Source: Segatella cerevisiae
Lineage (GTDB): Bacteria > Bacteroidota > Bacteroidia > Bacteroidales > Bacteroidaceae
Direction of reading: 5' to 3'
DNA: 64,000 bases
Assembly (NCBI RefSeq): GCF_024054555.1
Contig: NZ_JAMXLY010000010.1
Coordinates: forward strand, 1-64,000
The notes below the pieces were generated by a model. It saw nothing but the letters and a program-made list of their open reading frames with translations, did no database searches and was not told the origin of the DNA. Below, piece by piece: positions 2,388 through 47,986 of the stretch (its first letter is position 1; every line of letters starts with the position of its first letter). A program made the position numbers and the translations under genes.

Positions 2388-2487
2388 ATAGTGTTTAATA
2401 TCAACTCGTTCTGTTATTTTGCTCATGTATTAAGTTTGGTTCTGAAATACCAAAATCCAGGCTAAGGTCGTCAGACCTTTGTCCGAC

Positions 2488-4158
2488 CTATTTTATTTGT
2501 CCCGCCCTTTTCAGCAAGTCCCGTGCGTTGGCAAGAGCAGCTTCGGTGACAGCACTGCCACTCAGCATTTGGGCTATTTCGCGGATACGTTGTTCCGGGG
2601 ACAAGAGGACCATCTCACTGCTCGTTCCCTGCGCTGTATCTTCCTTGATCACCTTATAATGTGTAGACCCTAAAGCTGCGATTTGGGGGAGGTGAGTGAT
2701 GGAGATCACCTGACGGTTCTTGCCCATATCACGCATGATGAGGGCCATCTTCTCAGCGATCTTTCCACTGACACCCGTATCTATTTCATCGAATATGATG
2801 GTCGGGAGTTTGACAACACCGCTGACCATTGCCTTCAATGACAGCATCACCCTGGCTATCTCACCACCGGAAGCGACTTGTGCAACAGGCTGCATCGGCG
2901 TGTTCTGGTTGGCACTGAAGAGGAAAGAGACTTTGTCCATTCCGCGATCACTTAAGGGCCTTTCCTGGAATTGTACGCTGAAGCGGACATGGGGGATTCC
3001 CAGTGGTATCAGCCGTTTCTGCATTTCAGATTCTATCTTGCCGGCAGAAACTTTTCTGGTTTTCGTGAGTATTGCTGCTTTAGACTGACATTCTGCCAAT
3101 TTGTCATTGACCTTATCCTGAAGTTCTTTGAGTTCATCATCGCTATTGTCAATAGAAGCTAACTTATTATCGAGTTGCCGGCTGATTTCTACGAGTTCTT
3201 CCGTACTGTTGACATGGAATTTAAGTTCCAGTGCGTAGAGGGCATCCAGACGATTGTTGATTTGCTGCAGTTCTTCAGGGTTGAAATCGACTTTCTCGAC
3301 TTCACCACTTATCTCTTCACCAATATCTTTCAGGTCGATATAGGAACTGTCCAAGCGAGAAGCAAGTTTGCCGGAATCCGGCAAGAACTTCCCGATGCTA
3401 TGGAGTTGGTTTGAAGTCTCTTTCAACAGTTCTATGATCCCCTTTTCATCAGCGTTCAGTGCTTGATCAGCAGAATACAGTGCCGATTTGATTTCCTCGG
3501 CATGACTCATCGTTTGGGATTTCTGTTCCAATTCTTTCTGTTCTCCGGGCTGAGGGTTGACCTTCTCGATTTCCTGGTATTGGAACCTGATGAACTCTTC
3601 GTTCTGTCGTGCGTTGGCTATAGTCGTTTGAAGATCATTCAATTGCTTTTGCAACTGGTGGTATTCGATATATGATTTGTGATAGTCATCGAGTAACCTC
3701 CTATCATTTGCGACGATGTCCACAATGCCCAGTTGGAAATCATCTTTTTTTAGCAACAGGTTCTGGTGCTGAGAATGGATGTCTACGAGATCCTCACCCA
3801 ATTCACGCATGAGGGCGAGTTGTACAGGAGTATCGTTGATGAAAGCGCGGCTTTTCCCCGTACTGGTCAACTCACGGCGAATAATGGTATCTTTGAAATC
3901 TTTGTCAATATCATGTTGTGAGAAGAAATCGTCCAAGTCTGAGCCGGTCAGATCAAAATGAGCCTCTATGACGCAGTGGCTGCAGCCGGATTTGACCGCT
4001 TTGGAATCAGCCCTGTTTCCCAGGAGCAGTCCGATGGCACCTATGATGATGGATTTCCCCGCCCCAGTCTCTCCCGTGATGACGGAAAAACCTGGGTTGA
4101 ACTTGATATTGAGTTCATCAATAAGTGTAAAGTTCTTGATATATAGTCGTTTAAGCAT
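2488..4158 (-). CDS. recN: DNA repair protein RecN
   Basis: This SMC-like ATPase acts in recombinational repair of double-strand breaks. The 556 residues match the family length. The N-terminus MLKRLYIKNFTLIDEL is typical, Walker A GETGAGKS is at residues 29-36, and the middle is a long coiled coil interrupted near residues 290-310. The signature region VASGGEIARVMLSLK and Walker B TIIFDEIDTGVSG are near residues 430-470. It lies 111 nt after coaBC on the same strand. A 32-codon reading frame fills that gap. The order dnaN, exonuclease, coaBC, recN fits a Bacteroidetes arrangement. Confidence 0.97.
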   Translation of the reverse strand: MLKRLYIKNFTLIDELNIKFNPGFSVITGETGAGKSIIIGAIGLLLGNRADSKAVKSGCSHCVIEAHFDLTGSDLDDFFSQHDIDKDFKDTIIRRELTSTGKSRAFINDTPVQLALMRELGEDLVDIHSQHQNLLLKKDDFQLGIVDIVANDRRLLDDYHKSYIEYHQLQKQLNDLQTTIANARQNEEFIRFQYQEIEKVNPQPGEQKELEQKSQTMSHAEEIKSALYSADQALNADEKGIIELLKETSNQLHSIGKFLPDSGKLASRLDSSYIDLKDIGEEISGEVEKVDFNPEELQQINNRLDALYALELKFHVNSTEELVEISRQLDNKLASIDNSDDELKELQDKVNDKLAECQSKAAILTKTRKVSAGKIESEMQKRLIPLGIPHVRFSVQFQERPLSDRGMDKVSFLFSANQNTPMQPVAQVASGGEIARVMLSLKAMVSGVVKLPTIIFDEIDTGVSGKIAEKMALIMRDMGKNRQVISITHLPQIAALGSTHYKVIKEDTAQGTSSEMVLLSPEQRIREIAQMLSGSAVTEAALANARDLLKRAGQIK

Positions 4159-4171
4159 CCTTGATTAATCC

Positions 4172-4270
4172 TTATCTTATATGTATTTCAAGACCGTTTC
4201 GGGCACAACTGTTCTTGATTTTATTGAGGGCTTCTGACAATCTCAATGCCATGAGACCATGACCGTACAT
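4172..4270 (-). CDS. Possible 32-residue small ORF between coaBC and recN
   Basis: The ATG at 4268-4270 overlaps the coaBC stop codon (TAATG), which would allow translational coupling. The frame runs 32 codons to TAA, 13 nt before the recN start. The peptide is basic and could form a helix (MALRLSEALNKIKNS), with one Cys. I recognise no family. It may be a real small protein, the remnant of a larger gene, or chance. Confidence 0.3.
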   Translation of the reverse strand: MYGHGLMALRLSEALNKIKNSCARNGLEIHIR

Positions 4271-5463
4271 TATAAGAGTTTTGCTAGTTCATCAATAATG
4301 TCAGCAGCCACTTCCGTTTTGGGTTTACGAGAATAATCTTTGCGGGCTGAAGTTGTAAGAATTGAGATCTGGTTTTCATCATAACCAAAAGTCGTCCCAG
4401 GGTTCCGTGTCGAATTGAGGACGATGAAATCAGCATTTTTCTTAATCAATTTTTCCTTTGCGTGAACTTCTTCATGATCAGTCTCCAATGCAAAGCAGAC
4501 CAATTTCTGATCCGGTTTCTTCATACCTCCTAAGGCAGCAGCGATATCATGAGTAGGGATCAGGTGGAGGAGTTCGGTATCTTTTCCTCTCTTGATCTTA
4601 TTTTCGGCAACCTTTTCAGGTTGAAAATCAGCGACCGCCGCACAGAGGATAGCCGCGTTGCAGAGAGGAAAATGTTTCTGAGCCGTTTCATACATTTCCT
4701 GGCAGTTGGTGACATCAATCCGGTGGATCTCTTTCCTGCAGGACCTTGACACCGGACCCGCTATCAATGTGACATCAGCACCCCTTTTATAACATTCTTC
4801 AGCCAATGCAAATCCCATCTTCCCTGAAGAATAGTTGCCTATGAATCTGACAGGGTCGATGTTTTCATAGGTTGGACCGGCAGTAATCAGGAGTTTTTTA
4901 CCTTTCAGTTGGTCTTTCTTTTCATAGAAGAAACGATCGAGGACATCAGTGATCACGTCAGGTTCTTCCATCCTCCCTTTTCCTTCCAGGCCAGAAGCCA
5001 GGAACCCATGCTCAGGTTCAATGATATGGTTGCCGAAACTTTTCAGAATATTTATATTTTCCTGTGTGGCAGGATGCTGATACATATCGACATCCATTGC
5101 AGGCGCAATAAACACCGGAGCTTTCATGGCCAAGTAAGTTGTAATGAGCATATTATCAGCTATCCCGTGAGCCATTTTCCCTAACGAAGCTGTCGTACAA
5201 GGGGCGATGACCATTGCGTCAGCCCACTGACCCAAGGCGACATGAGAGTGCCACGAGCCGTCTTCCTGAGAGAAGAAATCACTGATAACCGGTTTTTGGG
5301 TCAGTGCAGATAGGGTAATAGGAGTGATGAATTCTTTACCGGAGGGAGTGATGACAACTTGGACTTCTGCGCCACGCCTTATCAGGTCCCTAATGAGAAA
5401 ACAAGATTTATAGGCGGCTATAGAACCGGTAATGCCTAGGACAATCTTTTTTCCTTTTAGCAT
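4270..5463 (-). CDS. coaBC: Bifunctional phosphopantothenoylcysteine decarboxylase / phosphopantothenate-cysteine ligase
   Basis: CoaBC performs two steps of coenzyme A synthesis: CTP-dependent joining of phosphopantothenate with cysteine, then FMN-dependent decarboxylation. Residues 1-180 are the CoaC flavoprotein domain with GITGSIAAYKS, the active-site His74 (HSHVALGQW) and PAMDVDMY at 121-128. Residues 190-397 are the CoaB ligase domain with ITAGPTYENIDPVRFIGN and NYSSGKMGFALAEE. The length of 397 is usual. It starts 20 nt after the exonuclease gene and is cotranscribed with dnaN and recN. panC and panD, which act earlier in the same pathway, are at 59224-60452 in this window. Confidence 0.96.
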   Translation of the reverse strand: MLKGKKIVLGITGSIAAYKSCFLIRDLIRRGAEVQVVITPSGKEFITPITLSALTQKPVISDFFSQEDGSWHSHVALGQWADAMVIAPCTTASLGKMAHGIADNMLITTYLAMKAPVFIAPAMDVDMYQHPATQENINILKSFGNHIIEPEHGFLASGLEGKGRMEEPDVITDVLDRFFYEKKDQLKGKKLLITAGPTYENIDPVRFIGNYSSGKMGFALAEECYKRGADVTLIAGPVSRSCRKEIHRIDVTNCQEMYETAQKHFPLCNAAILCAAVADFQPEKVAENKIKRGKDTELLHLIPTHDIAAALGGMKKPDQKLVCFALETDHEEVHAKEKLIKKNADFIVLNSTRNPGTTFGYDENQISILTTSARKDYSRKPKTEVAADIIDELAKLL

Positions 5464-5483
5464 GATCGTGTCAGAATATCTTG

Positions 5484-6344
5484 TTAATGATTGAGTTCCT
5501 TCAGACGAATACGTGTCAGCACCTGTTTGGTGTTGAGCGTAAAGTCACTGTTGAGAATCCATGAGAAATAGCCCGGGTCACGCCGCAGGACATCAGCTAC
5601 AGCCCATCCGCGATATTTTCCGAAATTGAAGACCTCATGCTTACGAGGCTTTCCGTCTTTATCCATCAGAATGTTGCCTTTACCGTCATCCATAGGCTCC
5701 CAAACGATGCGGCCGGAGAAGTCTACATTGTCATTCCGCTTTGAAAATTCAGCAAGTTCATCCATGTTGTTGTTGAGTACACGGTCAGGGTCTTCTTGCT
5801 TACCGGGCGCATACTTGTCCAATTCACCTTGTAGTACACGGTAAGTGGCTTCAGTATCCTGATCAGAACGGTGGGCGACCAAATCATCTTCCATCTTGTG
5901 TCCGGTATAAAACTTATATGCAGCTGCGAGGTTACGTTGTTCCAACTTATGATAGATGGTCTGGGCATCGATGAGACGGCATTTGGAAAAGTCGAAATCG
6001 ATGCCTGCCCTGAGGAATTCCTCAGCCAATAAAGGGACGTCGAAGCGGTTGGAATTAAAACCGGCGAAGTCGCACCCTTTGAACGTTTCTGCCAATTCAG
6101 GCGCGAGCGTTTTGAATGTCGGTTTGTCTTTTACCTTTTCATCATCAATCCCGGTGAGTTCCACCACTTCAGTAGGGATATGCTTTTCAGGATTGACGAG
6201 ATAGTTGCCTCGTACCTCTTTGTTTTCCGGATTGCCCGGTTCCACCTTGATATAAGAAATCTGAATAATACGATCATGAATCAGATCAAGGCCTGTTGAT
6301 TCGAGATCAAAAACAATAAGAGGTTTTGTTACGTTGAGTTTCAT
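5484..6344 (-). CDS. DEDDh 3'-5' exonuclease, DnaQ/PolC-epsilon type
   Basis: This 286-residue protein has an RNase H-fold exonuclease domain. Exo I is FDLESTGLD at residues 12-20, Exo II lies around GFNSNRFDVPLLAEEF, and Exo III is the H-x4-D motif HRSDQD. The C-terminal 90 residues form a small extra domain seen in Bacteroidetes homologues (VFNFGKYRGWAVADVLRRDPGYFSWIL), which resembles the exonuclease-associated DUF3820-like region. It lies 15 nt after dnaN, which suggests a proofreading or repair role near the replisome. Whether it is the true polymerase III epsilon subunit cannot be read from sequence. Confidence 0.88.
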   Translation of the reverse strand: MKLNVTKPLIVFDLESTGLDLIHDRIIQISYIKVEPGNPENKEVRGNYLVNPEKHIPTEVVELTGIDDEKVKDKPTFKTLAPELAETFKGCDFAGFNSNRFDVPLLAEEFLRAGIDFDFSKCRLIDAQTIYHKLEQRNLAAAYKFYTGHKMEDDLVAHRSDQDTEATYRVLQGELDKYAPGKQEDPDRVLNNNMDELAEFSKRNDNVDFSGRIVWEPMDDGKGNILMDKDGKPRKHEVFNFGKYRGWAVADVLRRDPGYFSWILNSDFTLNTKQVLTRIRLKELNH

Positions 6345-6359
6345 TTCTTTTTTCTTTCT

Positions 6360-7484
6360 TTAGTCGTTCAGCAACATTGGCATCAGCAGCATCAGGACTT
6401 CACCGTTTTCAGGTTGAGTAGCCGGATAGACTATTCCTGCCCGAGAAGGATCAGCGAGTTCCATGATGACTTCATCACTTTCAAGGTTGGTTAAGATTTC
6501 CAGCAGACTGGTACCCTTGAAACCGATGCTCATAGCTTGTCCGCTATAGTCACAAGTCAACTGCTCTTTGGCAGATGTGGCGAAATCCAGATCTTCCGAA
6601 TTCAGTTCCAGTTTCCCAGTTCCTAATTGGAATCTGACCAATTCGCTGCTCTCACTGGCGAAAGGAACGACACGGCGGAGCGCGCTGAGCAAGCTTCGGC
6701 GATCGACGGTCAGTTTGTTCGGGTTGTCTGTCGGGATCACGGAATTATAGTTGGGGTATCTGCCTTCAATCAATCGGCAGTTCAGAATACCGCCGTCAAA
6801 TTTGATTTCAGAATTCCGATTATTGAACCGGATGACCACGTCACCACTTTCACGGTTCAGGATATTCTTCAAGAGTGTTGAAGGTTTTTTAGGCAGGATG
6901 AAAGCCGTCGGCGTTTCACTTTTGATACTAAAGAACTTGTTGCGGACGAGTTTATGTCCGTCACTGGCAACAATGTTCAGGCTCTCCGGCGTAAGGTCGA
7001 AGTATATACCGTTCATGACGGGACGAAGTTCGTCATCAGCCGTAGCGAAAAGAGAACGGGTCAAGTTGTCTACCAGAACGCCTGCGTCAATGGTAATGGT
7101 TGTCGTATCGCCGTCTAAGGTTTGAGCCTGGGGATACTCTTCCGCATTTTGAGCAGTGAAATTATAGAGTCCGTTTTGATAAGTGACTTTTACATTATAT
7201 GTATCAGTGTCAATGTCGAAGTTCAGGGGTTGCTCCGGTAATTCCTTGACTGCATCAATGATGGTGCGGCTGGGGATCGCGAAGTTACCGTCGCCTTCAG
7301 AACTGTCCAACTTTAGAGTACTCTTGATGATATTTTCGCTATCACTAGCTGTAATGGACAGCGTTCCTTTGCTGACTTGAAAAAGAAAACAGTCGAGGAT
7401 TGGCAATGAATTCTTGCTGTTGATCACCTTGGATAGCGTGCTAAGACAACTGCTTAGTGCCGTACTGGATATTGTAAATCTCAT
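6360..7484 (-). CDS. dnaN: DNA polymerase III beta subunit (sliding clamp)
   Basis: The 374 residues cover the three clamp domains. Recognisable segments include the N-terminal MRFTISSTALSSCLSTLSKVI, the linker around LTRSLFATADDELRPVMNGI, and the C-terminal end YPATQPENGEVLMLLMPMLL, which matches the clamp end normally close to the peptide-binding groove. It is the first gene of a minus-strand operon and has a well matched promoter at 7551-7582. dnaA and recF are not adjacent, as is common in Bacteroidetes. Confidence 0.97.
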   Translation of the reverse strand: MRFTISSTALSSCLSTLSKVINSKNSLPILDCFLFQVSKGTLSITASDSENIIKSTLKLDSSEGDGNFAIPSRTIIDAVKELPEQPLNFDIDTDTYNVKVTYQNGLYNFTAQNAEEYPQAQTLDGDTTTITIDAGVLVDNLTRSLFATADDELRPVMNGIYFDLTPESLNIVASDGHKLVRNKFFSIKSETPTAFILPKKPSTLLKNILNRESGDVVIRFNNRNSEIKFDGGILNCRLIEGRYPNYNSVIPTDNPNKLTVDRRSLLSALRRVVPFASESSELVRFQLGTGKLELNSEDLDFATSAKEQLTCDYSGQAMSIGFKGTSLLEILTNLESDEVIMELADPSRAGIVYPATQPENGEVLMLLMPMLLND

Positions 7485-7550
7485 GAGTATGTATTTTTAT
7501 GTTCTATTCGCATGTATACCACAAGATGCAAACTCGCACCTTATAATGCA

Positions 7551-7582
7551 CAAAAATACGAAAATATGTGTACATAAGCAAA
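7551..7582 (-). promoter_or_regulatory. Promoter of the dnaN operon
   Basis: On the minus strand there is TTTG (7579-7582), a 20-nt spacer and TATTTTTG (7551-7558). It matches the Bacteroidetes primary sigma consensus fully and implies a 5' leader of about 60 nt. Confidence 0.65.
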
Positions 7583-7598
7583 AATTAGCTTAGAAAAT

Positions 7599-7629
7599 TT
7601 CGGTTTTTAGAACTATTTTAGTAATTTCG
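7599..7629 (+). promoter_or_regulatory. Probable promoter of the DUF3127 gene
   Basis: TTCG (7599-7602), a 19-nt spacer and TAATTTCG (7622-7629) give one mismatch per box to TTTG / TAnnTTTG, 30 nt upstream of the ATG at 7660. Confidence 0.45.
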
Positions 7630-7659
7630 CAGACTGAACTAAATAATAAAACATACGAC

Positions 7660-8079
7660 ATGGAAATTCAAGGAAAGATTATTGCGGTTCTCCCGAAGCA
7701 AAGCGGTACGTCAAAAAGGACGGGCAATCCATGGGCATCGCAGGATTATGTCATAGAAACACACGAGCAGTATCCTCGCAAATGCGTTTTCCGGGTATTT
7801 GGAGAGGACAAGATCAATCAGTTTGCTATCAAGAGTGGGGAGGAGTTGACCGTCTCTTTTGATATAGACGCCCACGAATATCAGGGAAGATGGTTTAATA
7901 ATATCTCTGCCTGGCAAGTACAGCGGGTTGATCCGGCTGCCGTTCAGGCGAGTGCTCAGGGCAATCAACCCCAAGATAGCGCAGAAGGTCTTGCCGGTGG
8001 TACTGCTAATGGTGCTCAGGCTCCATTTCCCCCAGCTCCGGATGATGACAGCAAAGGTGCGGATGACCTGCCTTTCTGA
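7660..8079 (+). CDS. DUF3127 domain protein (OB-fold-like, SSB-related)
   Basis: The 139-residue protein starts MEIQGKIIAVLPKQSGTSK and has the conserved DUF3127 core of about residues 1-95 (DYVIETHEQYPRKCVFRVFG, DIDAHEYQGRWFNNISAW). The C-terminal 45 residues are disordered, rich in Gln, Gly and Pro, and end in an acidic DDDSKGADDLPF tail. That tail closely resembles the SSB C-terminal tip (DDDIPF) which docks partner proteins. It is a single-gene unit divergent from dnaN, with a terminator at 8106-8150. I infer a role in single-stranded DNA metabolism from the tail and fold; the family lacks a firm function. Confidence 0.88.
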   Translation: MEIQGKIIAVLPKQSGTSKRTGNPWASQDYVIETHEQYPRKCVFRVFGEDKINQFAIKSGEELTVSFDIDAHEYQGRWFNNISAWQVQRVDPAAVQASAQGNQPQDSAEGLAGGTANGAQAPFPPAPDDDSKGADDLPF

Positions 8080-8105
8080 TTTTTTCCTTTCAACGATTTA
8101 AATAG

Positions 8106-8150
8106 AAATGGTTCCCGAAACGATAATTGAAGTTTCCGGAACCATTTTTT
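8106..8150 (+). terminator. Terminator after the DUF3127 gene
   Basis: AAATGGTTCC (8106-8115) pairs with GGAACCATTT (8138-8147). The stem extends inward as GAAAC/GTTTC and is followed by a T-run. Confidence 0.85.
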
Positions 8151-8345
8151 ATATATTGGAATGAAACGGGTAATCGCCGTTGCCAATAGTCACTGTTTGC
8201 ATGAACTTCTCCATTTTTCTCAGAAAGTTGTCTTGTTAGAACCAAGGCAACTGACAGCGGACATAGCTGGACAGTGATCCGGAAAAGAATAGGGGAGTTT
8301 TGTATAAGTCTTTTTAATTCGTTGTAATGTACGCTTGGATGACCG

Positions 8346-10040
8346 TCAATGAATAGTGGCCATCTGGAGGAATTTCGTGTACTCCTGTTCGTAACCGTTG
8401 AAGACGTTGATATCGACTTCCCCATGAATACCTTGCACCCTGCCATCAGGACACAATTGCCAAAAAGCCAGACGGACATCGGGTTTGTATTCACCATAGT
8501 GAGCAATCCAGATAAAATAGTTTTGTTTGATATCCGGTGCGTCGTTCAGGTATCTGTTGACGAATATCTGATTGATATACAGTATAGGTCTAGTGCCCGT
8601 ATGTTGTTGCACAATCCTCAGCCATGTCCGGATGTGACTGAACAGAACTTTTGCTCCACCCATTTTCCTGATTTGGCTCGGGTAAGGTTCTACGTCGAGT
8701 ACTGGCGGAAGGTCACCCTTCTCAAATTTTGATTTCTCGAGATAGAACTTGGCTTGTTGTGCCGGATCGCTGTGGAGGGAAAAGAAATGGTAAGTTCCTA
8801 CATGGTAACCGTATGCCTTGGCATTCTTGTAATCGCGGGCATAATAGGGATTGGAAACTGTTACCCCTTCTGTGTTTTTGATGAAGACAAACCTCAGGGG
8901 ATAGTTGACTGTACCTGCCACTGTCTTCTTGCTCAGATTGCCGAGATGGGTAATACGCAGGTGCGCCCAGTCGATGGCATAATAATGCTTGTGCCGCGTG
9001 CCTTTGATATGCTGGTATTTAGAGACGTCGATGCCATAGATCCGCTCTGAACTATAGACCAGTCGTTCTCCCAGATAGACATCGTTTTTCCATTCGCCCA
9101 CACGGAGTCTCTTCCTGTGAGAGACGGAGAATCCGAAGCCGTTGCGCTTGCCTTTCACCCAGTTGCCCTCATAGTATGATCCGTCGTTGTTCAAATGAGC
9201 GCCATGTCCTGAAGGCCTAAACTGGTCATCCATTTCTCCGATGTATATCCCGGAAGAGTCAGGGCGTTCACTCCAGATGATATGCTTTCTGATGCTTTTG
9301 CTGATGCCGATGACAATGCGTTTGGCGACAGACAGAGGCTGACTGGAAACACCTTTGGGTTTCTTGCCGTCATCGGTTTGGACAAGGAGGAAGTGGGGCT
9401 TGAGCGTCTTGATGAAATGACAACTCTCCTCCGCGCGTTTACCTTTCGAATCCTTGTAGATGACCGTAAAGAGTACCTTATAGGTAATATGGAGTTGGTT
9501 GCTGTCTTTTCTGACCCTGTCGAGAGTGTCCAGTTCCCGCCTGATCTGCTGATATTGTTTGACTTTGTGAGTCCCATACCTGGCGATCATCCCGAACCCT
9601 ACATCACGTACATCGTGCACATGGATATAATATTTGAGGTCTGCGACGATGCCCCTCAGTTCAATCCTCTTTCTTTTCAGGGAATCCACATGCGCCCTCA
9701 AGAGTTTTGCAACTTCTGGAGTACTGTATTTATGTTGGAAGAGGGTATTCTCGTAAACCGCCAGAAGTTTGCCTTTACAAGAAGGTATCAGTCCCCATTG
9801 GTCCGTCCAGCATGCGGCAGTCGTGACCGTATCCGTATTGAACGACAGCACGGGTCGCCCCTTCAGTGTAAGTTCATAACAGGAAATACACCTCAGCTGC
9901 GCTTCACTCTTGTAAATTTCTTTATATCCAGCTGTATAGTTGATGGAGACTGCCACAACCACCAGAATGAGCAGTAAGAGTGGTAGGCTGAATACTTTAA
10001 GTCTTTTCTTTGCAAAAATATATTTTATCTTTTCTTGCAT
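8346..10040 (-). CDS. Membrane-anchored GH25 muramidase with MORN repeats
   Basis: The 564-residue protein has one transmembrane segment at residues 17-33 (FSLPLLLLILVVVAVSI). A region of unknown type follows (40-260), then two to three MORN-like repeats at 264-326 (GSYYEGNWVKGKRNGFGF, LRVGEWKNDVYLGE). The C-terminal 230 residues are a GH25 lysozyme domain with catalytic D338 (YGIDVSKYQ) and the D-x-E pair D449/E451 (PVLDVEPYPS). GH25 enzymes cleave MurNAc-GlcNAc bonds. It is probably a periplasm-facing, inner-membrane-anchored cell wall hydrolase. A -7 box ends only 7 nt before the ATG. A second, simpler GH25 lies at 36471-37157. Confidence 0.9.
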   Translation of the reverse strand: MQEKIKYIFAKKRLKVFSLPLLLLILVVVAVSINYTAGYKEIYKSEAQLRCISCYELTLKGRPVLSFNTDTVTTAACWTDQWGLIPSCKGKLLAVYENTLFQHKYSTPEVAKLLRAHVDSLKRKRIELRGIVADLKYYIHVHDVRDVGFGMIARYGTHKVKQYQQIRRELDTLDRVRKDSNQLHITYKVLFTVIYKDSKGKRAEESCHFIKTLKPHFLLVQTDDGKKPKGVSSQPLSVAKRIVIGISKSIRKHIIWSERPDSSGIYIGEMDDQFRPSGHGAHLNNDGSYYEGNWVKGKRNGFGFSVSHRKRLRVGEWKNDVYLGERLVYSSERIYGIDVSKYQHIKGTRHKHYYAIDWAHLRITHLGNLSKKTVAGTVNYPLRFVFIKNTEGVTVSNPYYARDYKNAKAYGYHVGTYHFFSLHSDPAQQAKFYLEKSKFEKGDLPPVLDVEPYPSQIRKMGGAKVLFSHIRTWLRIVQQHTGTRPILYINQIFVNRYLNDAPDIKQNYFIWIAHYGEYKPDVRLAFWQLCPDGRVQGIHGEVDINVFNGYEQEYTKFLQMATIH

Positions 10041-39757: not shown

Positions 39758-40822
39758 TTATAATTGTGTTCTTTTATAGAAGTCCACATTCTCTTTCGTG
39801 AGGAGTTCTATAGGCATATAGTTGACAGGTTGTATCTTTTTCTTGAGGACGATGGCTCTGAAGAGTGCGTCTACACAGTAGTAGCCCTGCATATAGGCAT
39901 GTTGTGCGATCAGGAAGGAGATGCTTCCGGACTTCAGGCATCTGGCATTTTTCCCTACCATATCGTAACCCATGATCTGAATATCACGACGGTTGGTCAT
40001 CAAGAGAAAATCGCCGATGATATGGGCTTTGGAACTGAGGGTGATACAATGGTGCACATCGGGATGAGACGTAAAGAAGTCTTCCAGAATCTTGTCGTAC
40101 TCCTTACGTGTATTATCCAGCGGAAGTTGCAGTTCCGTAATCTTGATATGAGGAAAGTGATCGTGCATATAATGTCTGAATCCGACCTCTCTGTTATCCT
40201 GCTGTTTGCTGACCACTTGTCCGTTCTTGGTCAATTTCATCAGCATGATTTCTTTTTCATCCGAAGCGATGAGCATCAGCATCTTTGCTGCAAAGTAACC
40301 GCTGCAGAAGGAATCCTGCCCATAAAAAGCCAAAGGTTTGAGATCGGGCATATAGGAGTCGAGAAAGATGAAAGGAATGTTATTCTCATGCAGTTTGTCT
40401 GTGAAGAGACGCGTGGTATCGAGTTTTGTTGGAACCAGGATGACACCATCCGGCTTTTTCTGGAAGACCTCTTCACACTCAGCCTTAAATGAGGCATCGT
40501 CATAGCGGTTGTAATGCACGATCTCCACGCTGATATGAAAATCCCGTCTTACCTCTTCGCATTTCTTTGCCCCGTCTTCTATTTCTGCCCAGTAAGCCTC
40601 ATATTCATGTTGGGGAATCAGCAAATAGAAGACATATTCCTTATTGTAGGCCAAGGCACTGGCATACATATTAGGCTGATAGTTCATTTCCTTCAACGCC
40701 TGTTCTACTTTTGCCCTTGCCGGTTTTGACACATTAGGGCGATCGTGTAATACCCTGTCGACAGTTCCTACAGAGACACCGGCTCTTTCAGCTATATCTT
40801 TGATTCTAATCTTTACGGACAT
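39758..40822 (-). CDS. LacI-family transcriptional regulator
   Basis: The 354-residue protein has the LacI helix-turn-helix at residues 4-25 (IKDIAERAGVSVGTVDRVLH) with hinge helix, then a periplasmic-binding-protein-like sensor domain (about 65-340). The VDRVLHDRPNVS recognition segment differs from the usual VSRVLN. It is divergent from kdgK-eda and directly upstream of uxaA, so it probably controls both units in response to a hexuronate intermediate such as KDG or KDPG. Candidate operators at 40914-40957 overlap its own -7 box. Confidence 0.92.
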   Translation of the reverse strand: MSVKIRIKDIAERAGVSVGTVDRVLHDRPNVSKPARAKVEQALKEMNYQPNMYASALAYNKEYVFYLLIPQHEYEAYWAEIEDGAKKCEEVRRDFHISVEIVHYNRYDDASFKAECEEVFQKKPDGVILVPTKLDTTRLFTDKLHENNIPFIFLDSYMPDLKPLAFYGQDSFCSGYFAAKMLMLIASDEKEIMLMKLTKNGQVVSKQQDNREVGFRHYMHDHFPHIKITELQLPLDNTRKEYDKILEDFFTSHPDVHHCITLSSKAHIIGDFLLMTNRRDIQIMGYDMVGKNARCLKSGSISFLIAQHAYMQGYYCVDALFRAIVLKKKIQPVNYMPIELLTKENVDFYKRTQL

Positions 40823-40941
40823 GATAATAGTAAAATTGAGTTAATGTTTCGCACGACCGTTCCTTATCTTTCAGGAACAGTCTGTTTTGTCTACTTGACG
40901 CATTTGGATACCGTGCACAAATGTACACATTTCGTTTCAAT

Positions 40942-40957
40942 TGTGCGAATGCACAAC
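40942..40957. promoter_or_regulatory. Perfect palindrome, candidate LacI-type operator
   Basis: The TTGTGC and GCACAA arms flank GAAT. The 6-bp arms are exact. The site is near the -33 position of the lacI promoter. Confidence 0.55.
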
Positions 40958-41105
40958 GATAAAATTTCGGATAAAACTTGTTTTTTGATCGGTCTTGGAT
41001 TGAATAGTAAAATGGAGTTGGCAAATTGATAACTATTTGATACCGATCCATCATTGAAGATTTTCATTTCCCATCGGCATAATGGAAAGTTTTTTTCATT
41101 TTTAT

Positions 41106-41136
41106 TTCGAAATATGGGAAATATTCTTTATATTTG
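41106..41136 (+). promoter_or_regulatory. Promoter of kdgK-eda
   Basis: TTCG (41106-41109), a 19-nt spacer and TATATTTG (41129-41136): a full -7 and a 3-of-4 -33 match, 57 nt before the kdgK ATG. Confidence 0.6.
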
Positions 41137-41193
41137 CCCTATGAGAACAAACATACTCAAGATCTAAGTAAACTTATCAACAAAAATTAGAAA

Positions 41194-42216
41194 ATGGCTA
41201 AAGTTGTTACATTAGGTGAGATCATGCTCCGCCTTTCACCGGAAGCGAATGATCGTTTTGTACAGACTGATACTTTTCGTATTATCCCTGGGGGAGGAGA
41301 AGCTAATGTTGCCGTGAGTTTGGCTAATTATGGGCATGATGCTTATTTTGTGACTAAACTCCCGAAACACGAGATCGGTCAGATTGCAGTCAATGCATTG
41401 CGTCGTTACGGTGTTCATACTGACTACATCGTCCGTGGAGGTAAAAGGGTCGGACTTTATTATGCTGAGACGGGGGCTTCGATGCGCCCTTCTAAAGTGA
41501 TTTATGACCGTGCTGACAGTGCGATCGCAGAAGCAGATCCTTCTGACTTTGATTTTGACACGATCATGGAGGGTGCGAAGTGGTTCCATTGGACCGGCAT
41601 CACACCTGCAATCAGCGACAAAGCTGCCAAGTTGACACTTCTCGCTTGTGAAGCCGCTAAGCGTCACGGCGTCACGGTCTCTGTCGACTTGAATTTCCGT
41701 AAGAAATTATGGACTTCAGAGAAGGCCATTTCCATTATGCGGCCCCTGATGAAATATGTTGACGTCTGTATCGGCAACGAGGAGGACGCACAGTTGTGTC
41801 TGGGCTTCAAACCTGATGCCGACGTAGAGGCAGGGAAGACAGATGCCAAAGGTTATTACCATATCTTTGAGGGTATGATGAAGCAATTCGGTTTCAAATA
41901 TGTGGTATCTACACTCCGCGAATCAATTTCTGCTAGTCATAATGGCTGGAAAGCTCTTATCTATGACGGCAAGGAATTTTACGAAAGCAAGCACTACGAT
42001 ATCATGCCGATCATCGACCGTGTCGGAGGAGGAGATTCCTTTGCCGGAGGTTTGATACATGGTTTGCTGACGAAGCCTGATCAACGTGAAGCCCTGGAGT
42101 TTGCTGTGGCTGCTTCAGCCTTGAAGCATACGATTCCTGGCGATTTCAATCTGGTCAATGCTGAGGAAGTGGAAAGTCTGGCAAATGGTAATGCCAGTGG
42201 CCGTGTTCAACGGTGA
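41194..42216 (+). CDS. kdgK: 2-keto-3-deoxygluconate kinase (PfkB family)
   Basis: The enzyme phosphorylates KDG with ATP to KDPG. The 340 residues show the PfkB N-terminal signature near residue 35 (PGGGEANVAVSLANYGHD) and the C-terminal anion-hole motif RVGGGDSFAGGLIHGLL near 275-291 with its catalytic Asp. Location between a LacI-type regulator and eda, opposite uxaA, supports KDG as substrate over other sugars. Confidence 0.93.
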   Translation: MAKVVTLGEIMLRLSPEANDRFVQTDTFRIIPGGGEANVAVSLANYGHDAYFVTKLPKHEIGQIAVNALRRYGVHTDYIVRGGKRVGLYYAETGASMRPSKVIYDRADSAIAEADPSDFDFDTIMEGAKWFHWTGITPAISDKAAKLTLLACEAAKRHGVTVSVDLNFRKKLWTSEKAISIMRPLMKYVDVCIGNEEDAQLCLGFKPDADVEAGKTDAKGYYHIFEGMMKQFGFKYVVSTLRESISASHNGWKALIYDGKEFYESKHYDIMPIIDRVGGGDSFAGGLIHGLLTKPDQREALEFAVAASALKHTIPGDFNLVNAEEVESLANGNASGRVQR

Positions 42217-42278
42217 TTGATTATCGGTTTCAGTGAAAGAAATTACACCTTTTTATATTATATTTTTAAAAGAAAAAT

Positions 42279-42950
42279 ATGGCAAGATTCAATAAAATAC
42301 AGGTGTTGACAGCAATGGGGAAGACAGGCATGGTACCTGTATTCTTCAATAAAGACTTGGACGTTTGTAAGCATGTCCTCAAGGCCTGTTACGATGGTGG
42401 CGTGAGAGTTTTCGAATTTACTAACCGCGGGGATTTCGCTCACGAGATTTTCGGTGAACTCAACAAGTGGGCAGCTGAGGCTTGTCCTGAATTGATTTTA
42501 GGTGCAGGTACGGTCATCGATGCACCTACTGCTGCACTGTATATTCAACTTGGAGCCAATTTTATTGTCGGACCTAACCTCAATCCGGAGATCGCACCAG
42601 TCTGTAACCGTCGTCTCGTGCCTTACACCCCCGGTTGCGGATCTGTCTCTGAGATCTCTGACGCTCAGGCTCTGGGCTGTGATGTGACGAAGGTCTTCCC
42701 TGCTGGCAATGTAGGAGGGCCGTCTTTCGTAAAGAACCTACTCGGTCCTCTTCGCTGGAGCAATGTGATGGTGACGGGTGCCGTTGCTCCTGACCAGGAA
42801 AATCTCACCGCTTGGATAAAATCCGGCGTGTTCTGTGTTGGAATGGGGTCGAAACTCTTTCCTAAAGATGATATTGCTGCGGGCAACTGGAAAGCCATCA
42901 CACAAAGATGTGTTCAGGCATTAGGCTATATCCAGTCTGCTCGTGCTTAA
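42279..42950 (+). CDS. eda: KDPG aldolase / 4-hydroxy-2-oxoglutarate aldolase
   Basis: Eda splits KDPG into pyruvate and glyceraldehyde 3-phosphate. The 223-residue class I aldolase has the catalytic Glu in the region FEFTNRG, the [12 protein letters not shown] strand, and the Schiff-base Lys in [14 protein letters not shown]. It is 62 nt after kdgK in the same transcript and is followed by a hairpin terminator at 42990-43027. Confidence 0.95.
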
Positions 42951-43027: not shown

Positions 43028-43054
43028 TTGCTATTGAAACCTATCTTGAAATTT

Positions 43055-46000
43055 ATGCGGCTTTCAGGAACCTTGTCCCTGATCTTGGTTCTCTTTCTTT
43101 CAGCCTGTACCCCTTCCCATCAAAAGGAAGTTGACGAGTTGAATGCGAGGGCGTATTATTTTCATTATAGGAATATTGACTCTACGAGAGTTCTCGCACA
43201 AAAGGCTTTGGACTTGTCCTCAGATTACGATGCCGGACAAGCGGAAGCACTTAATAACCTTGCCTTTGTCAGCATCGCGCGGATGAATTATCCGCAAGCT
43301 TCTAAACTGTTGGCTCGTGCAATATCAGCAAGTGATAACCAGGTCGAACTTCTGGTCGCTTATATCCAGCAAATGCGGTTGTGCCAACGGCAAGCCCAGA
43401 ATAAAAACTTTTATGACTGTCGTGAACGGGCAATCAATTGTCTGCACCGTATAGATGAGAGTAGTGACGATCTATCCGAAAGAGCACGTCAGAGGATGAT
43501 ATATGCCCGTTCAGAATTCAATTTTGTCAGTGCTACTTATTACTATTATACCGGTCAGAACCATCTCTTCCTCAAAGCCTTGAAAAGTGTCAATTCCAGT
43601 GAGTGCGAATCTGATACTGCCCAATATCTGAGTTATCTTTATAACATGGGTGAAGGTGGAGCAATCAATCAAGGATCCCTGGAACAGATCGCCCAGACTG
43701 AATTTAATTACCTGATGCGTTGCTTTTATTTCGCAACGGTGAGCCACAGTCCTTATTGGATAGCCAATTCCCTTGAAGCAATTAGCGAGCATATGCAGAA
43801 CCAGCGTATCTGCGATTACCTGATCCGCAACAATGGACCGGCTATGGAATGGCTGAATGTCGACCTGATGCCTTATCATCTTCTGGCAGGGAATTTCGCG
43901 CAGCGCTCTCTGGATTTGTTCATCAAGTATGGTGACGTCTATCAGATAGCGGGTGCTTACAGGACCTTAGGCAGGAATTATTGGGCAATAGGGGATTACC
44001 GTTCCGCCCTGATCTGTCTGAACCGTGCATTGAGCAACAAGAAGATACTCCAGGCTCCTGATCTGGTGGCGTCGATAAGGGAGCAGTTGAGTATGGTGTA
44101 CTCGGCTTTAAATGATAAACAGGCGAGTGACTATAACCGTAATGTCTATCTTGACCTACAGGAAAAGACGCGGCAGGACCGGATGATGGAAGCACGGGCT
44201 GCAGAACTGGACAGAAATGCGACCCAGTTGAATGCGATGATCTTTGCAGTCGTCCTGATGATCGCGTTTTTCATCACGCTCCTCTTTTTCTTTGACCGCC
44301 TTCGCCGAAAAAACGATGATGCCGACTCTTTTAGAAAATTACTCCAGCCGCTCCGTCAATGGAAAGAGAAGAACGAACTCCAGATCAGCGACTTGACGGA
44401 TAAGTATGAAGAGATACATGAAGACACTTCGGTGCTCCAAGCCAATATCCTCAAAGACAAACAGAGGAATCTTGAGCAGCGGGCAAAGGTACAACTGGTG
44501 ATCAGCATCACCCCTTTCATTGATCAGATGATCAATGAGGTGAAGCGGCTCCAAGAAGGGAAAGACGATGTGGAAGTGAAGAGGTTCCGCTATCAATATA
44601 TCAACGAATTGATAGACCATATCAATCAGGATAATATCGTCCTGACCCGTTGGATCCAACTCCGGCAGGGACAACTGAGCCTGCACATCGAGAGTTTTCC
44701 GGTAGAGTCTATTTTCGACATCGTGAGAAAAGGCAGCATGGCATTTCAGTTGCGGGGGATAACCCTGACAGTGAAGAAAACCACTGCCGTAGTCAAGGCA
44801 GACCGGACGCTGACTTTGTTCATGATCAATACGATGGCGGACAATGCCCGCAAGTATGTCGACAGTGGTGGGTGTGTCACTATTGAGGCAACAGAATATA
44901 CTGACTATGTAGAAATCAGTGTGGCGGATACCGGGAAGGGGATGTCACCGGAACAGGTGGAGCACATTTTTGACCATAAGGCGATCATCAATGACGAACA
45001 AACTGTCCCTAATGCTGAAAAGAAGCATAGCCACGGTTTTGGACTTTTAAACTGTAAAGGGATTATTGAAAAATATAAGAAGACCAGTAATCTATTCCGA
45101 GTTTGCAGTATTTCTGCCAAAAGCGAGTTGGGCAAGGGGTCGCGTTTCTCTTTCACTTTGCCTAAAGGGATAGTGCGGCACTTGAAATTGATCTTCATCC
45201 CCATCATCGTATTCTTGACGTTTTTCCCGAGACAGATGCAGGCAGACAGTAGCACCATGCAAAAGAGGTATCTGGCGTCTGCCTCTTCAAAACAGGTCTC
45301 GCACGCTTCCCCTAAAATGAAAGTGTGGTTGTCCCACAAAGCTATCCAGTTTGCCGACAGTATCTATTATTCCAATATCTTCGGCCATTATCGTAAGGCC
45401 TTGGTATTTGCGGACAGTACACGCCATTATTTGAATGCACTCTATCTGCAATTGGTCCCTGACGGCAAAGTCCTGATGAAGGCGGTAGGGTCTGAAGTCA
45501 TTCCTCCTGAGATACAATGGTTCCGCAGTCATTTGGATATCAATTATCTAGTGATCCTTGACATGAGGAATGAAAGTGCGATTGCCTGTCTGGCAGTACA
45601 TGACTGGTCCGGATACACTTATAATAATACGGTGTATACACAACTCTTCCGAGAGTTTTCTGCGGACCAGTCCCTCGACGACTATGTGCAGACCATGCAG
45701 CGGTCTGAAAATTCGAAGACAGTCGCTATTATCATTCTTGTCCTACTGTTGTTCTCCATCTTTCCTGCCTATTACTTCCTGTATTACCGTCATAGGGTAT
45801 TCTATAGATTCTGTATAGAACGCATACAAGGTATCAACCAGATTCTACTGAGCGACCTTCCTGATCAGGACAAACTCCGGGAGATCAACCGACTGTGGGA
45901 TAAGCGGATGAGCCGGAACAGAGGTTTCCAATTTCATGAAACTCCCGAATACCGCTCCAAGAACGTGTTGGATCAATTGAATCAGGTTGTCAACCAAATA

Positions 46001-46636
46001 GCACTTGCCTTGCAGAAGGGGATGTCTGTTTACCATAATCATCAGTTGAATATCGAACTTGCACAGGATGAACTGGCACGTGCCAGGTATGAGGACGACC
46101 GCCTGCATGTTTCGAATGCCGTCCTGGACAACTGTCTGAGTACGCTCAAGCACGAGACGATGTATTATCCTTCCCGTATCCAACAGCTCATTGACGGGTC
46201 TGATAAGAATCTGGAGGTCATCAGTGAACTGGCCAGTTATTATAAAGAACTGTATTCTCTCCTCTCGACTCAGGCTTTGAGACAGATTATCGGTCAAATG
46301 AGACTGGATCCGGACTTGGTGGATTATCTTTTCGATATTCTTCAAAGAAAGAGCGGAGAGAAGCGTATAACATCTGAAAAAATAGGGGAGAGCGGCCGCT
46401 ATGCCCGTATACGTATTCCGTTGCCGAAATTAGAACTGACAAGTATGGAGTGCAAACAACTGTTTAACCCTCAGACAAAAGACTTGGATTTTCTTTTATG
46501 CAAGCAGATCGTCAGAGAAATAGGAGACGTGACTAATCTCCGGGGATGTGGCATAGAGGCATTACCCTCCCAAAACGGTTCCGGAACAATTATAGAAATG
46601 GTATTACCTAAAAAAATATGGATAAATTTAAAGTAA
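43055..46636 (+). CDS. Giant three-pass sensor kinase with DUF5112/DUF5113-type architecture
   Basis: I start at the ATG at 43055 because it opens a signal with lipobox LFLSAC; a TTG 27 nt upstream is less likely. The 1193 residues comprise periplasmic TPR-like helices (20-390), TM1 (about 393-415), a coiled linker, and a HATPase domain with N box (N597 in MADNARKY), G1 (D625-x-G-x-G) and G2 (HGFGL, 660-664). TM2 follows (about 708-724, resembling an internal signal sequence), then a second periplasmic domain (725-888), TM3 (889-910) and a helical cytoplasmic part with an H-box-like segment (LKHETMYYPSR, H1033). The very C-terminus looks like the end of a HATPase without N or G boxes. The response regulator overlaps it by 19 nt. 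Domain family names are from memory. Confidence 0.85.
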   Translation: MRLSGTLSLILVLFLSACTPSHQKEVDELNARAYYFHYRNIDSTRVLAQKALDLSSDYDAGQAEALNNLAFVSIARMNYPQASKLLARAISASDNQVELLVAYIQQMRLCQRQAQNKNFYDCRERAINCLHRIDESSDDLSERARQRMIYARSEFNFVSATYYYYTGQNHLFLKALKSVNSSECESDTAQYLSYLYNMGEGGAINQGSLEQIAQTEFNYLMRCFYFATVSHSPYWIANSLEAISEHMQNQRICDYLIRNNGPAMEWLNVDLMPYHLLAGNFAQRSLDLFIKYGDVYQIAGAYRTLGRNYWAIGDYRSALICLNRALSNKKILQAPDLVASIREQLSMVYSALNDKQASDYNRNVYLDLQEKTRQDRMMEARAAELDRNATQLNAMIFAVVLMIAFFITLLFFFDRLRRKNDDADSFRKLLQPLRQWKEKNELQISDLTDKYEEIHEDTSVLQANILKDKQRNLEQRAKVQLVISITPFIDQMINEVKRLQEGKDDVEVKRFRYQYINELIDHINQDNIVLTRWIQLRQGQLSLHIESFPVESIFDIVRKGSMAFQLRGITLTVKKTTAVVKADRTLTLFMINTMADNARKYVDSGGCVTIEATEYTDYVEISVADTGKGMSPEQVEHIFDHKAIINDEQTVPNAEKKHSHGFGLLNCKGIIEKYKKTSNLFRVCSISAKSELGKGSRFSFTLPKGIVRHLKLIFIPIIVFLTFFPRQMQADSSTMQKRYLASASSKQVSHASPKMKVWLSHKAIQFADSIYYSNIFGHYRKALVFADSTRHYLNALYLQLVPDGKVLMKAVGSEVIPPEIQWFRSHLDINYLVILDMRNESAIACLAVHDWSGYTYNNTVYTQLFREFSADQSLDDYVQTMQRSENSKTVAIIILVLLLFSIFPAYYFLYYRHRVFYRFCIERIQGINQILLSDLPDQDKLREINRLWDKRMSRNRGFQFHETPEYRSKNVLDQLNQVVNQIALALQKGMSVYHNHQLNIELAQDELARARYEDDRLHVSNAVLDNCLSTLKHETMYYPSRIQQLIDGSDKNLEVISELASYYKELYSLLSTQALRQIIGQMRLDPDLVDYLFDILQRKSGEKRITSEKIGESGRYARIRIPLPKLELTSMECKQLFNPQTKDLDFLLCKQIVREIGDVTNLRGCGIEALPSQNGSGTIIEMVLPKKIWINLK

Positions 46637-47343
46637 TAATAGTAGAAGATGTGCCTTTGGAACTAAGAGGCACTGAAGGGATATTCCACAACGATATCCC
46701 CGAAGCTCAAATTATCGGTACTGCAGATAGTGAACCTGTGTATTGGAAACTTCTCAAACAGCAATTACCTGATCTGATCTTACTTGACCTAGGCCTCGGC
46801 GGCAGCACAACTGTGGGTGTTGAAATATGCCGTAAAACCAAAGAGATGTACCCGAAAGTAAAGGTACTGATTTTCACAGGTGAAATACTTAATGAAAAAC
46901 TTTGGGTGGATGTCCTCGACGCCGGATGTGACGGCATCATCCTCAAGAGTGGCGAACTGCTTACCCGTGACGATGTTGCTTCCTGTATGTCGGGCAAAAA
47001 ACTAGTATTTAACCAGCCTATTCTAGAGAAGATCGTCGAGCGTTTCAAGAAGAGTGTCAGTCAGGAAAACATGAGGCGGGAAGCATTAGTAGACTATGAA
47101 ATAGATGAGTATGACGAGCGCTTCCTGAGGCATCTTGCTTTGGGATATACCAAGGAGCAGATCACAAATCTCCGAGGAATGCCTTTTGGGGTGAAGAGTT
47201 TGGAAAAACGACAGAATGAACTGGTCCAGAAACTCTTTCCTGATGGCAACGGGGGCATCAGTGTCAACGCTACCAGACTGGTTGTCAGGGCGCTACAACT
47301 GAGAATTATTGATCTAGATGATTTACATCCTGATGAAGAATGA
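46618..47343 (+). CDS. Response regulator with receiver and HTH domains
   Basis: The 241-residue protein has a receiver domain (1-120) with acidic pair E10/D11, phospho-acceptor D57 (LILLDLGLGG), T87 and K110 all in place. A C-terminal helix-turn-helix region (about 165-215, ERFLRHLALGYTKEQITNLR) is LuxR- or sigma-4-like. The ATG overlaps the kinase gene by 19 nt, so the pair is cotranslated. It is the evident output of the kinase. Its targets are unknown; the following membrane gene overlaps it and is a candidate part of the system. Confidence 0.92.
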   Translation: MDKFKVIIVEDVPLELRGTEGIFHNDIPEAQIIGTADSEPVYWKLLKQQLPDLILLDLGLGGSTTVGVEICRKTKEMYPKVKVLIFTGEILNEKLWVDVLDAGCDGIILKSGELLTRDDVASCMSGKKLVFNQPILEKIVERFKKSVSQENMRREALVDYEIDEYDERFLRHLALGYTKEQITNLRGMPFGVKSLEKRQNELVQKLFPDGNGGISVNATRLVVRALQLRIIDLDDLHPDEE

Positions 47344-47986
47344 GTTTCTTTTTAAAAATAACAAATTGTCAAAACGGTGGAAGAACAGAATCGGCTGGTT
47401 GATCTTCATCCTGAGTTTGATGCAGTTGGTCGTGATTCTCTTGTCATGGTTGCTTACAGCCGCAGATCCGGACAGTTCTATACGCTCTTTATTGAGCAGT
47501 GAAGGGATCAGATGGTTTATCGGCAAGAATGTAGAGAATTTATGCCAACCGCTTCTTGTCTGGCTGTTGATGGTCGGTACAGCTTGGGGAACAATGAAGT
47601 CGAGCGGTTTTAACCACTTCCTCGCTTCGGGACAGTTTCTACATTTGAAACAAGCGGAATTCAGAGAGCAAACTGCTTTTAAGTTTGCTCTGTTCGAATT
47701 TTGCCTTGTTTTCATTATCATGATATTACTTACGGCTTTTCCTCATGCCGTCTTATTGAATATTACCGGACATCTTTATCCCGGTCCTTTTTTCTCCGGA
47801 ATTGTTCCGGTAGCGAGTTTGACCTTTATAGGAATGGGGATGACCTATGGTTGTATCAGCGGTAAATTCCTGAACTTTGCGGATATATTTGACAGTGTCA
47901 CTCTTGGCGTGAGTATGGTATCTCCTTTGATCATCATTTATATTGTAGCCATCCAACTCTATTATTCGATCCTTTTCGTATTTTGA
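47333..47986 (+). CDS. AbgT-like small membrane protein
   Basis: The ATG at 47333 (MKNEFLFKNNKLSKRWKNR) overlaps the response regulator end by 11 nt; an ATG 15 nt upstream is possible. The 217-residue protein has about five membrane segments and the segment LLSSEGIRWFIGKNVEN. That segment resembles the short proteins annotated as AbgT-like in Bacteroidetes, which cover only part of the full p-aminobenzoyl-glutamate transporter. Tight coupling to the two-component pair suggests it shares their physiological role. Transport activity is uncertain. Confidence 0.65.
   Translation: MKNEFLFKNNKLSKRWKNRIGWLIFILSLMQLVVILLSWLLTAADPDSSIRSLLSSEGIRWFIGKNVENLCQPLLVWLLMVGTAWGTMKSSGFNHFLASGQFLHLKQAEFREQTAFKFALFEFCLVFIIMILLTAFPHAVLLNITGHLYPGPFFSGIVPVASLTFIGMGMTYGCISGKFLNFADIFDSVTLGVSMVSPLIIIYIVAIQLYYSILFVF

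Follow-up and report, generated by a model that had tools for sequence, protein, structure and literature searches.

A single-chain sensor kinase family with its ATP-site motifs and its putative phospho-acceptor histidine in different halves

Introduction

Split histidine kinases have been described as rare (PMC3591291). One of them is the CheA3/CheA4 pair of Rhodobacter sphaeroides; by itself, neither of these two proteins is reported to be capable of autophosphorylation (PMC3591291). The Synechocystis pair Hik36-Hik43, which works with one regulator, Rre6, has also been termed a split histidine kinase (PMC7656254), and Rv0600c and Rv0601c of Mycobacterium tuberculosis cooperate with TcrA (PMC9274095). 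DivL of Caulobacter is described as having no autokinase activity and as binding ATP poorly (PMC4211667). Here we describe a kinase-like protein encoded at positions 43055-46636 (+ strand) of a 64,000-nucleotide stretch of Segatella cerevisiae DNA (RefSeq assembly GCF_024054555.1, contig NZ_JAMXLY010000010.1, positions 1 to 64,000; this whole stretch is referred to as the window). The protein consists of two kinase-like halves in one chain: the first has intact ATP-site motifs and lacks a conserved acceptor histidine, and the second has an invariant histidine and lacks the ATP-site motifs.

Results

Two kinase-like halves in one open reading frame

The open reading frame (ORF) runs from an ATG at 43055 to a stop at 46636 and encodes 1193 amino acids (an in-frame TTG is located at 43028). 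A Pfam scan of the protein, which returned 20 families at an E-value of 1 or better, assigned DUF5112 to residues 26-289 and DUF5113 to three stretches, the best of which is 762-912; the scores (325.7 and 200.3 bits against cut-offs of 29.4 and 27.1, respectively) place the protein in both families. HATPase_c was matched at residues 590-704 (E 5.9e-16). No HisKA-type model was among the 20 families, and at the same threshold no HATPase model was reported for the C-terminal catalytic ATP-binding-like domain (CA2). A profile search of the genome placed the remaining DUF5113 stretches at 43928-44293, in the part of half 1 comprising tetratricopeptide repeats (TPR) and the first transmembrane segment (TM1), and therefore the sensor-TM unit is present twice. 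The features of the protein, including the dimerization and histidine phosphotransfer (DHp) hairpins, are as follows.

43055..46636 (+): tandem two-half histidine kinase, single ORF, 1193 amino acids, in the order DUF5112-DUF5113-TM1-DHp1-CA1-TM2-DUF5113-TM3-DHp2-CA2
43055..43108 (+): signal peptide whose lipobox-like end is LSAC (C18), with Cys at this column in 206/213 aligned rows
43130..43921 (+): DUF5112, TPR-like sensor 1, predicted to lie outside, residues 26-289 (Pfam, model)
43922..44293 (+): first DUF5113 unit (TPR part), ending in TM1 (about residues 395-413)
44381..44659 (+): DHp1-like hairpin without an acceptor His, helices 443-500 and 506-535
44690..45166 (+): CA1, intact HATPase_c with N597, D625-G627-G629 and G661-F-G663
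45164..45259 (+): TM2, internal hydrophobic segment, signal-peptide-like
45338..45790 (+): second DUF5113 unit, ending in TM3 (about residues 889-911)
45953..46291 (+): DHp2 hairpin, helices 967-1045 and 1050-1079
46151..46153 (+): codon of H1033, the proposed phospho-acceptor
46310..46609 (+): CA2, shortened HATPase fold without N, G1 or G2 residues

Conservation of the kinase motifs

We aligned 213 full-length proteins of 978 to 1529 amino acids, comprising the window protein and sets of 82, 50 and 80 homologues. The first two sets (132 proteins) were fetched with the DUF5113 profile, the 82 being spread over genera that match DUF5113. The 80 are the best of 584 confirmed relatives and come from loci fetched with patterns containing KHET or V[KR]AD[KR], which biases them toward H1033; their record titles are mostly Prevotella or Prevotellaceae, with Segatella, Hoylesella and Hallella also represented. 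The residues H1033, K1032, E1034 and P1039 of DHp2 and N597, D625, G627, G629, G661 and G663 of CA1 are invariant in all 213 proteins. H1033 and N597 are each found in 132/132 of the proteins fetched with the DUF5113 profile only, a set free of the KHET pattern bias. There is no conserved acceptor histidine at the equivalent place in DHp1: residue 482 is never His (Val in 194 rows, Ala in 14, Leu in two, Ile in two and Met in one), and residue 483 is Asn in 109, Thr in 44, Tyr in 17 and His in seven, with others in the remaining rows.

The ATP-site motifs have the opposite distribution. DxGxG is present at the G1 place of CA1 in all 213 proteins and anywhere in the C-terminal part in only eight, while the N-box pattern was found in CA1 of 211 proteins and in the C-terminal part of five. 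A loose G2 pattern matched CA1 in 213/213 and somewhere in the C-terminal part in 99/213, where the match of the window protein (GCGI) lies outside the G2 place. The CA2 stretches corresponding to the ATP-site residues of CA1 vary (163 rows). An orthodox kinase has a His-bearing DHp and an ATP-binding CA in the same half; here, the invariant histidine occurs only in half 2 and intact N and G boxes only in half 1. No HisKA-type model was among the 25 Pfam families shown for 31 members that were scanned. Judged by motif conservation, the acceptor histidine and the ATP-binding domain are on separate modules, each without the function of the other, as expected of a split kinase, and both parts are in one ORF in all 213 aligned proteins, the shortest of which has 978 amino acids.

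These results support the first-pass annotation of this stretch, made from the window's sequence, which had seen N, G1 and G2 boxes but no H-box in the first half, an H-box-like segment around H1033 (KHETMYYP) in the second, and a HATPase end without N or G boxes. It had named a conserved acceptor histidine upstream of N597 and a poorly conserved H1033 as observations that would speak against its interpretation, and the alignment contains neither.

Structure models

An AlphaFold2 model of the full protein has a mean pLDDT (predicted local distance difference test score) of 81.9, with low confidence at residues 723-751, right after TM2. CA1 of this model matches DivL (4q20, Z 19.9, 143 aligned residues, root-mean-square deviation (rmsd) 1.4), and also HK853 and CusS. 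Half 2 was folded alone, as the first-pass annotation had suggested, because TPR structures and CA1 filled the match lists of the full model. The resulting model of residues 911-1193 (pLDDT 89.4; predicted template modelling score (pTM) 0.52) has MprB (Z 9.8, 101 aligned, rmsd 2.7) and CpxA (Z 9.6, 165 aligned, rmsd 5.3) as its best matches, and all 50 matches shown (VIA-align) are kinase-type structures. We read CA2 in this model as a real but shortened HATPase fold that has lost its motifs.

A probable tandem duplication and an unsplit cousin

A profile alignment of half 1 with half 2 spans 321 columns (hhalign E 7.9e-18, probability 99.0); the E-values are 1.7e-17 for CA1 against CA2 and 1e-17 for the two DUF5113 units. 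An unsplit cousin kinase of 710-712 amino acids was found in three genomes (G791, G962 and G994) of one genus in another family of the order (3/80 genomes of that family), directly before a 283-amino-acid regulator with a DUF5932 match. By sequence, the cousin begins like a lipoprotein and has a single TM, a DHp containing RHDMSPY (CLSIFRHDMSPYI) and a complete CA. Its sensor is recognised by the sensor profile of the DUF5112/DUF5113 kinase family (35 to 51 bits), and the half-2 kinase profile ranks the cousins above all other non-self ORFs in a set of 240 (65 to 71.5 bits; next 53.7). In hhalign comparisons with the cousins, half 2 had an E-value of 2.2e-18 and half 1 of 1.8e-25.

The first-pass annotation had suggested a fusion of two kinase genes followed by a division of labour between them. 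The division of labour is supported, and for its origin the shared DUF5113, the alignment of the halves over 321 columns and the existence of an unsplit cousin point more specifically to a tandem duplication. Duplication of an unsplit kinase, with each copy losing one function, fits the data, the direction of change being the one that we infer.

When the cousin kinase was used as a query across the order, the matches were mostly unspecific HATPase matches (242/247 genomes), which were kept as a comparison set. The cousin loci with their DUF5932-type regulators are located at 5894-8862 (L205), 3757-6725 (L239) and 1340-4314 (L240) in the three genomes. The genes that follow them are, by eye, exported-protein-like, one with a sorting-like C-terminal tail.

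The adjacent response regulator and neighbouring genes

Two genes on the same strand follow the kinase gene in the window.

46618..47343 (+): response regulator, receiver (D57) plus DUF5932, its start overlapping the kinase stop; closest solved structures are of the VraR/NarL type
47318..47986 (+): third gene, encoding a short membrane protein related to AbgT (matching positions 252-351 of the 502-position AbgT profile)

The regulator gene adjoins the kinase gene on the same strand in 159/162 loci. In the three exceptions, the locus ends about 0.7 kb after the kinase (L180), other genes are found there (L199), or there is no regulator in the stretch (L043). D57 is conserved in 159/160 regulator rows, the remaining row being a broken ORF in L061. 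The sequence match of the regulator to VraR runs through residue 184, into the DUF5932 part, a candidate helix-turn-helix output domain. In one genome (L172, 10399-11422), about 1 kb separates the kinase gene from the regulator gene.

In 132/162 loci, an AbgT-related protein is encoded downstream on the same strand. The window's copy has 222 amino acids and covers only the profile positions given above; among six AbgT-related homologues scanned, three are full-length AbgT proteins (485-506 amino acids), two are partial and one is without a match. Upstream of the kinase gene, positions 39758-42950 encode a LacI-type regulator, a PfkB-type kinase and a 2-keto-3-deoxy-6-phosphogluconate (KDPG) aldolase. 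The KDPG aldolase gene is directly upstream of the kinase gene in 20/80 and 5/82 loci.

Distribution

DUF5113 was found by profile search in 313/399 genomes of the window's own family, representing 25/30 genera, and in 4/296 genomes of a phylum sample, where the three matches above the cut-off all belong to the window's family. The fourth, in G120, is weak (23.8 bits, below the cut-off) and was rejected as an occurrence outside the family: it lies in a 496-amino-acid repeat protein that looks, by eye, TPR-like and free of any kinase part. Of 247 genomes of the order, DUF5932 was found in four, namely G791 and three from the window's own family. It was absent from all 20 genomes tested out of the 86 family genomes that lack DUF5113. 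Among the matches listed, the only case of a gene in two frames (G664) is an ORF running to a contig end and was not counted as a split gene. There was no indication of plasmid or viral origin: positions 44000-47300 had no megablast match in 72,556 plasmid records, and none of 47 pattern matches in viral contigs was confirmed by tblastn, records very near the source genome possibly being excluded from both searches.

In the homologues of about 1400-1529 amino acids (L009, L010, L096 and others), each half contains, by eye, an additional stretch that separates TM from DHp. Three GAF models were reported among the 31 members scanned, each matching one member.

Proposed mechanism and alternatives

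We consider it likely that the protein is a sensor histidine kinase which arose by in-frame tandem duplication and complementary loss, and in which CA1 phosphorylates H1033 and the phosphate then passes to D57 of the regulator. Half 1 (sensor 1, TM1, DHp1 and CA1) would be the ATP-using donor, with CA1 binding ATP and DHp1 serving as a scaffold after the loss of its histidine. Half 2 (sensor 2, TM3, DHp2 and CA2) would be the acceptor, with DHp2 bearing H1033 in the motif KHE and CA2 retained as structure, a presumably dead ATPase fold. DHp1 and DHp2 would probably pack as one four-helix pseudo-heterodimer, and CA1 would phosphorylate H1033 across this bundle. The phosphate would pass from H1033 to D57 of the adjacent regulator, which may act on DNA via a putative NarL-like output domain. 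Neither half could be expected to signal alone.

Pairing of DHp1 with DHp2 was assessed by mean-field coupling on the 213 sequences (effective number 146), with pairs between the cytoplasmic domains and DUF5112 as the control. Above 7 standard deviations (sd) there were 4/5840 DHp1-DHp2 pairs versus 1/39130 control pairs (Fisher p 0.0013), and the excess was also significant at 6 sd (p 0.013) and 4 sd (p 0.04). Against a second control, the DUF5113 of half 2 (158 sequences), it was significant at 5 sd (17 vs 15 pairs, p 1e-4). The pairs 492-1059 and 496-1060 resemble a weaker pair inside DHp1, 492-520, if 1059/1060 correspond to 519/520 as we read the alignment of the two halves. A paired-change test supports some DHp1-DHp2 pairs, including 496-1060 (p 7e-5) and 465-1010 (p 4e-5), which rank 73 and 55 of 5920. 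Taken together, the couplings lend mild support to a DHp1-DHp2 pseudo-dimer.

Several observations weigh against the proposed mechanism or its evidence. In the coupling analysis, the DHp1-DHp2 excess was not significant at 5 sd against DUF5112 (p 0.17) or at 7 sd against the second DUF5113 (3/5920 vs 3/20944, p 0.13), five top DHp1-DHp2 pairs rank from 55 to as low as 2771 of 5920 in the paired-change test, and an implausible pair (878 with regulator residue 104) reached 10.5 sd. Compared by themselves, DHp1 and DHp2 show no significant similarity (hhalign probability 7.7), and no Pfam HisKA model reports either of them. The half-1 profile puts two generic kinases of the order (89.9 and 84.6 bits) above the cousins (80 to 84), and the DHp2 profile sets the cousin H-box in register at a score (-1.5 bits) that is not significant. 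The pTM of the full model is only 0.55, and the Z-score of 9.8 for the half-2 model is just modestly above background figures. Half 1 is not entirely free of candidate histidines: apart from the seven proteins with His at 483, an H-box-like string occurs within half 1 of 5/213 proteins, and the column of N464 is His in 156/213, the window protein itself having none there. The residue after the N464-column histidine is Ile, Leu or Val in 149/156 and acidic in 0/156. Finally, the strongest coupling between kinase and regulator involves residues 498 and 494 of DHp1, each with regulator residue 26 (11.4 and 9.6 sd), and not the His-bearing DHp2; if it is real, the regulator would dock on the half without the histidine, which the favoured mechanism does not explain.

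This last coupling was weaker in the paired test, with p-values of 0.05 and 0.06, and as proof of a docking site it was set aside and not used for any conclusion. If 483 is the place of the lost histidine, 498 and 494 are His+15 and His+11; in HK853, H260+11 and H260+15 are residues 271 and 275, which appear in the titles of rewired structures. Residue 498 (44546-44548 in the window) and regulator residue 26 occupy positions commonly associated with kinase-regulator specificity, although DHp1 has no histidine. Lys at 498 tends to pair with Glu at regulator residue 26, and Arg with Asp, a trend that is not robust in the paired test; the putative K-E/R-D switch has two coherent pairs versus one incoherent pair.

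One alternative, which is compatible with divided labour, is that the protein is a polyprotein: TM2 would be a working internal signal peptide behind which signal peptidase (SPase) I or II cuts the chain, and the donor and acceptor subunits would reassemble as a two-protein split kinase from one gene. The first-pass annotation had noticed that TM2 resembles an internal signal sequence, and this holds across the family. TM2 is short (median uncharged run of 16 residues, vs 18 for the N-terminal signal peptide and 23 for TM3), and its core hydropathy (2.74) is close to that of the N-terminal signal (2.82) and below that of TM3 (3.64). Lipobox-like ends occur at TM2 of 68/213 proteins versus 22.2 expected from shuffles (64/132 vs 17.6 outside the Prevotella set) and SPase I-like ends at 104/213 versus 78.0. 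Either motif is present in 150/213 versus 90.6 expected, compared with 149/209 versus 81.6 for the N-terminal signal peptide and 11/213 versus 41.8 for a reversed TM3 control. The region of low model confidence directly after TM2 would also agree with a cut there. The FbcH cytochrome polyprotein is a bacterial precedent for an internal signal peptide (it was not found named in our literature search). However, the cleavage motifs are loose, the window protein's own TM2 end (PRQMQADS) fits neither, and in the Prevotella set lipoboxes are not enriched (4/81 vs 4.6) and SPase I-like ends only mildly (49/81 vs 37.4). TM2 would show the same features if it were a remnant of the signal peptide of the second copy that is not cut. 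We therefore regard a polyprotein as a tentative possibility, one to which we give roughly one chance in three. Equally tentative is its corollary, that SPase II would act in many Bacteroides-type members and SPase I in others, and that an export-coupled cut would give an exact 1:1 membrane split kinase, each half with its own periplasmic sensor. The division of labour would hold with or without a cut at TM2.

It is also conceivable that the two halves have independent functions, CA1 being used otherwise (e.g. for regulated ATP binding) and H1033 receiving its phosphate from another cellular kinase or by back-transfer from the regulator to DHp2. DivL is a precedent for a pseudokinase transmitter sensing a regulator (PMC4211667), CA1 resembles DivL in the structure comparison, and the strongest kinase-regulator coupling sits on DHp1. 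The ATP-site motifs of CA1 are intact, however, unlike the situation expected from the poor ATP binding described for DivL (PMC4211667), and no aligned protein has given up the arrangement of both parts in one ORF, which makes independent functions unlikely. Still more improbable, in our estimate, is a wholly non-catalytic sensor in which H1033 is conserved for structure only. Such a sensor would agree with the failure of the HisKA model to report either DHp, and with the proline of DHp2, which is at H+6 where H+5 is the usual spacing after an H-box histidine. It would leave the invariance of the N, G1 and G2 residues and of KHE, the near-universal D57 of the regulator, and the H-box and complete CA of the unsplit cousin without an explanation.

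Discussion

The favoured mechanism, phosphorylation of H1033 by CA1, implies that most sampled members of one bacterial family seem to have made a homodimeric kinase into an obligate two-part, one-chain machine, while an unsplit cousin persists in another family. As a naturally occurring single-chain system, the family would make it possible to study which histidine each ATP domain phosphorylates, how one kinase reads two sensors, and how complementary functions are lost after the duplication of an enzyme. It likewise offers a testable function for three domains of unknown function, DUF5112, DUF5113 and DUF5932. These are catalogued in Pfam, and no paper naming them was found in a library mostly without subscription journals. 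In the same library, no single-chain divided bacterial kinase was found among the papers listed on split, pseudo-, dual and tandem kinases, as judged by titles and the starts of abstracts. Two candidate descriptions proved to be something else: the 'dual histidine kinase' of PMC7516205 is, in the excerpt, the pair MSMEG_0244/0246 and not a single chain, and the 'two histidine kinase domains' of PMC4916428 are two Pfam stretches of PmrB. In SMART, 3.66% of HisKA proteins have been counted as lacking a HATPase domain (PMC3591291), a count that would miss the window protein because no HisKA model was found in it. The protein seems to operate in the manner of a split kinase, although its two parts are encoded in one ORF and not as separate proteins.

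The closest described systems differ from it mainly in this respect. In Rv0600c/Rv0601c the ATP-binding part and the histidine part are likewise separate, encoded by two genes, unlike the single gene of the window, and Hik36-Hik43 are two proteins, unlike the one-chain kinase. CheA3/CheA4 resemble the window protein in the separation of the ATP-binding and phosphorylatable parts (PMC3591291), but they are two CheA-type proteins, whereas the window protein is one chain of the membrane DHp-CA type in which both halves have a copy of the fold. DivL resembles half 1, a DHp without an acceptor histidine joined to a HATPase fold, and corresponds to one half only. As an analogy only, from an unrelated enzyme, the mammalian membrane adenylyl cyclases compare with the homodimeric Cya Rv1625c (PMC9433096) as a pseudo-heterodimer does with a homodimeric ancestor. 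The known split kinases are separate proteins, and the family described here encodes both parts as one chain.

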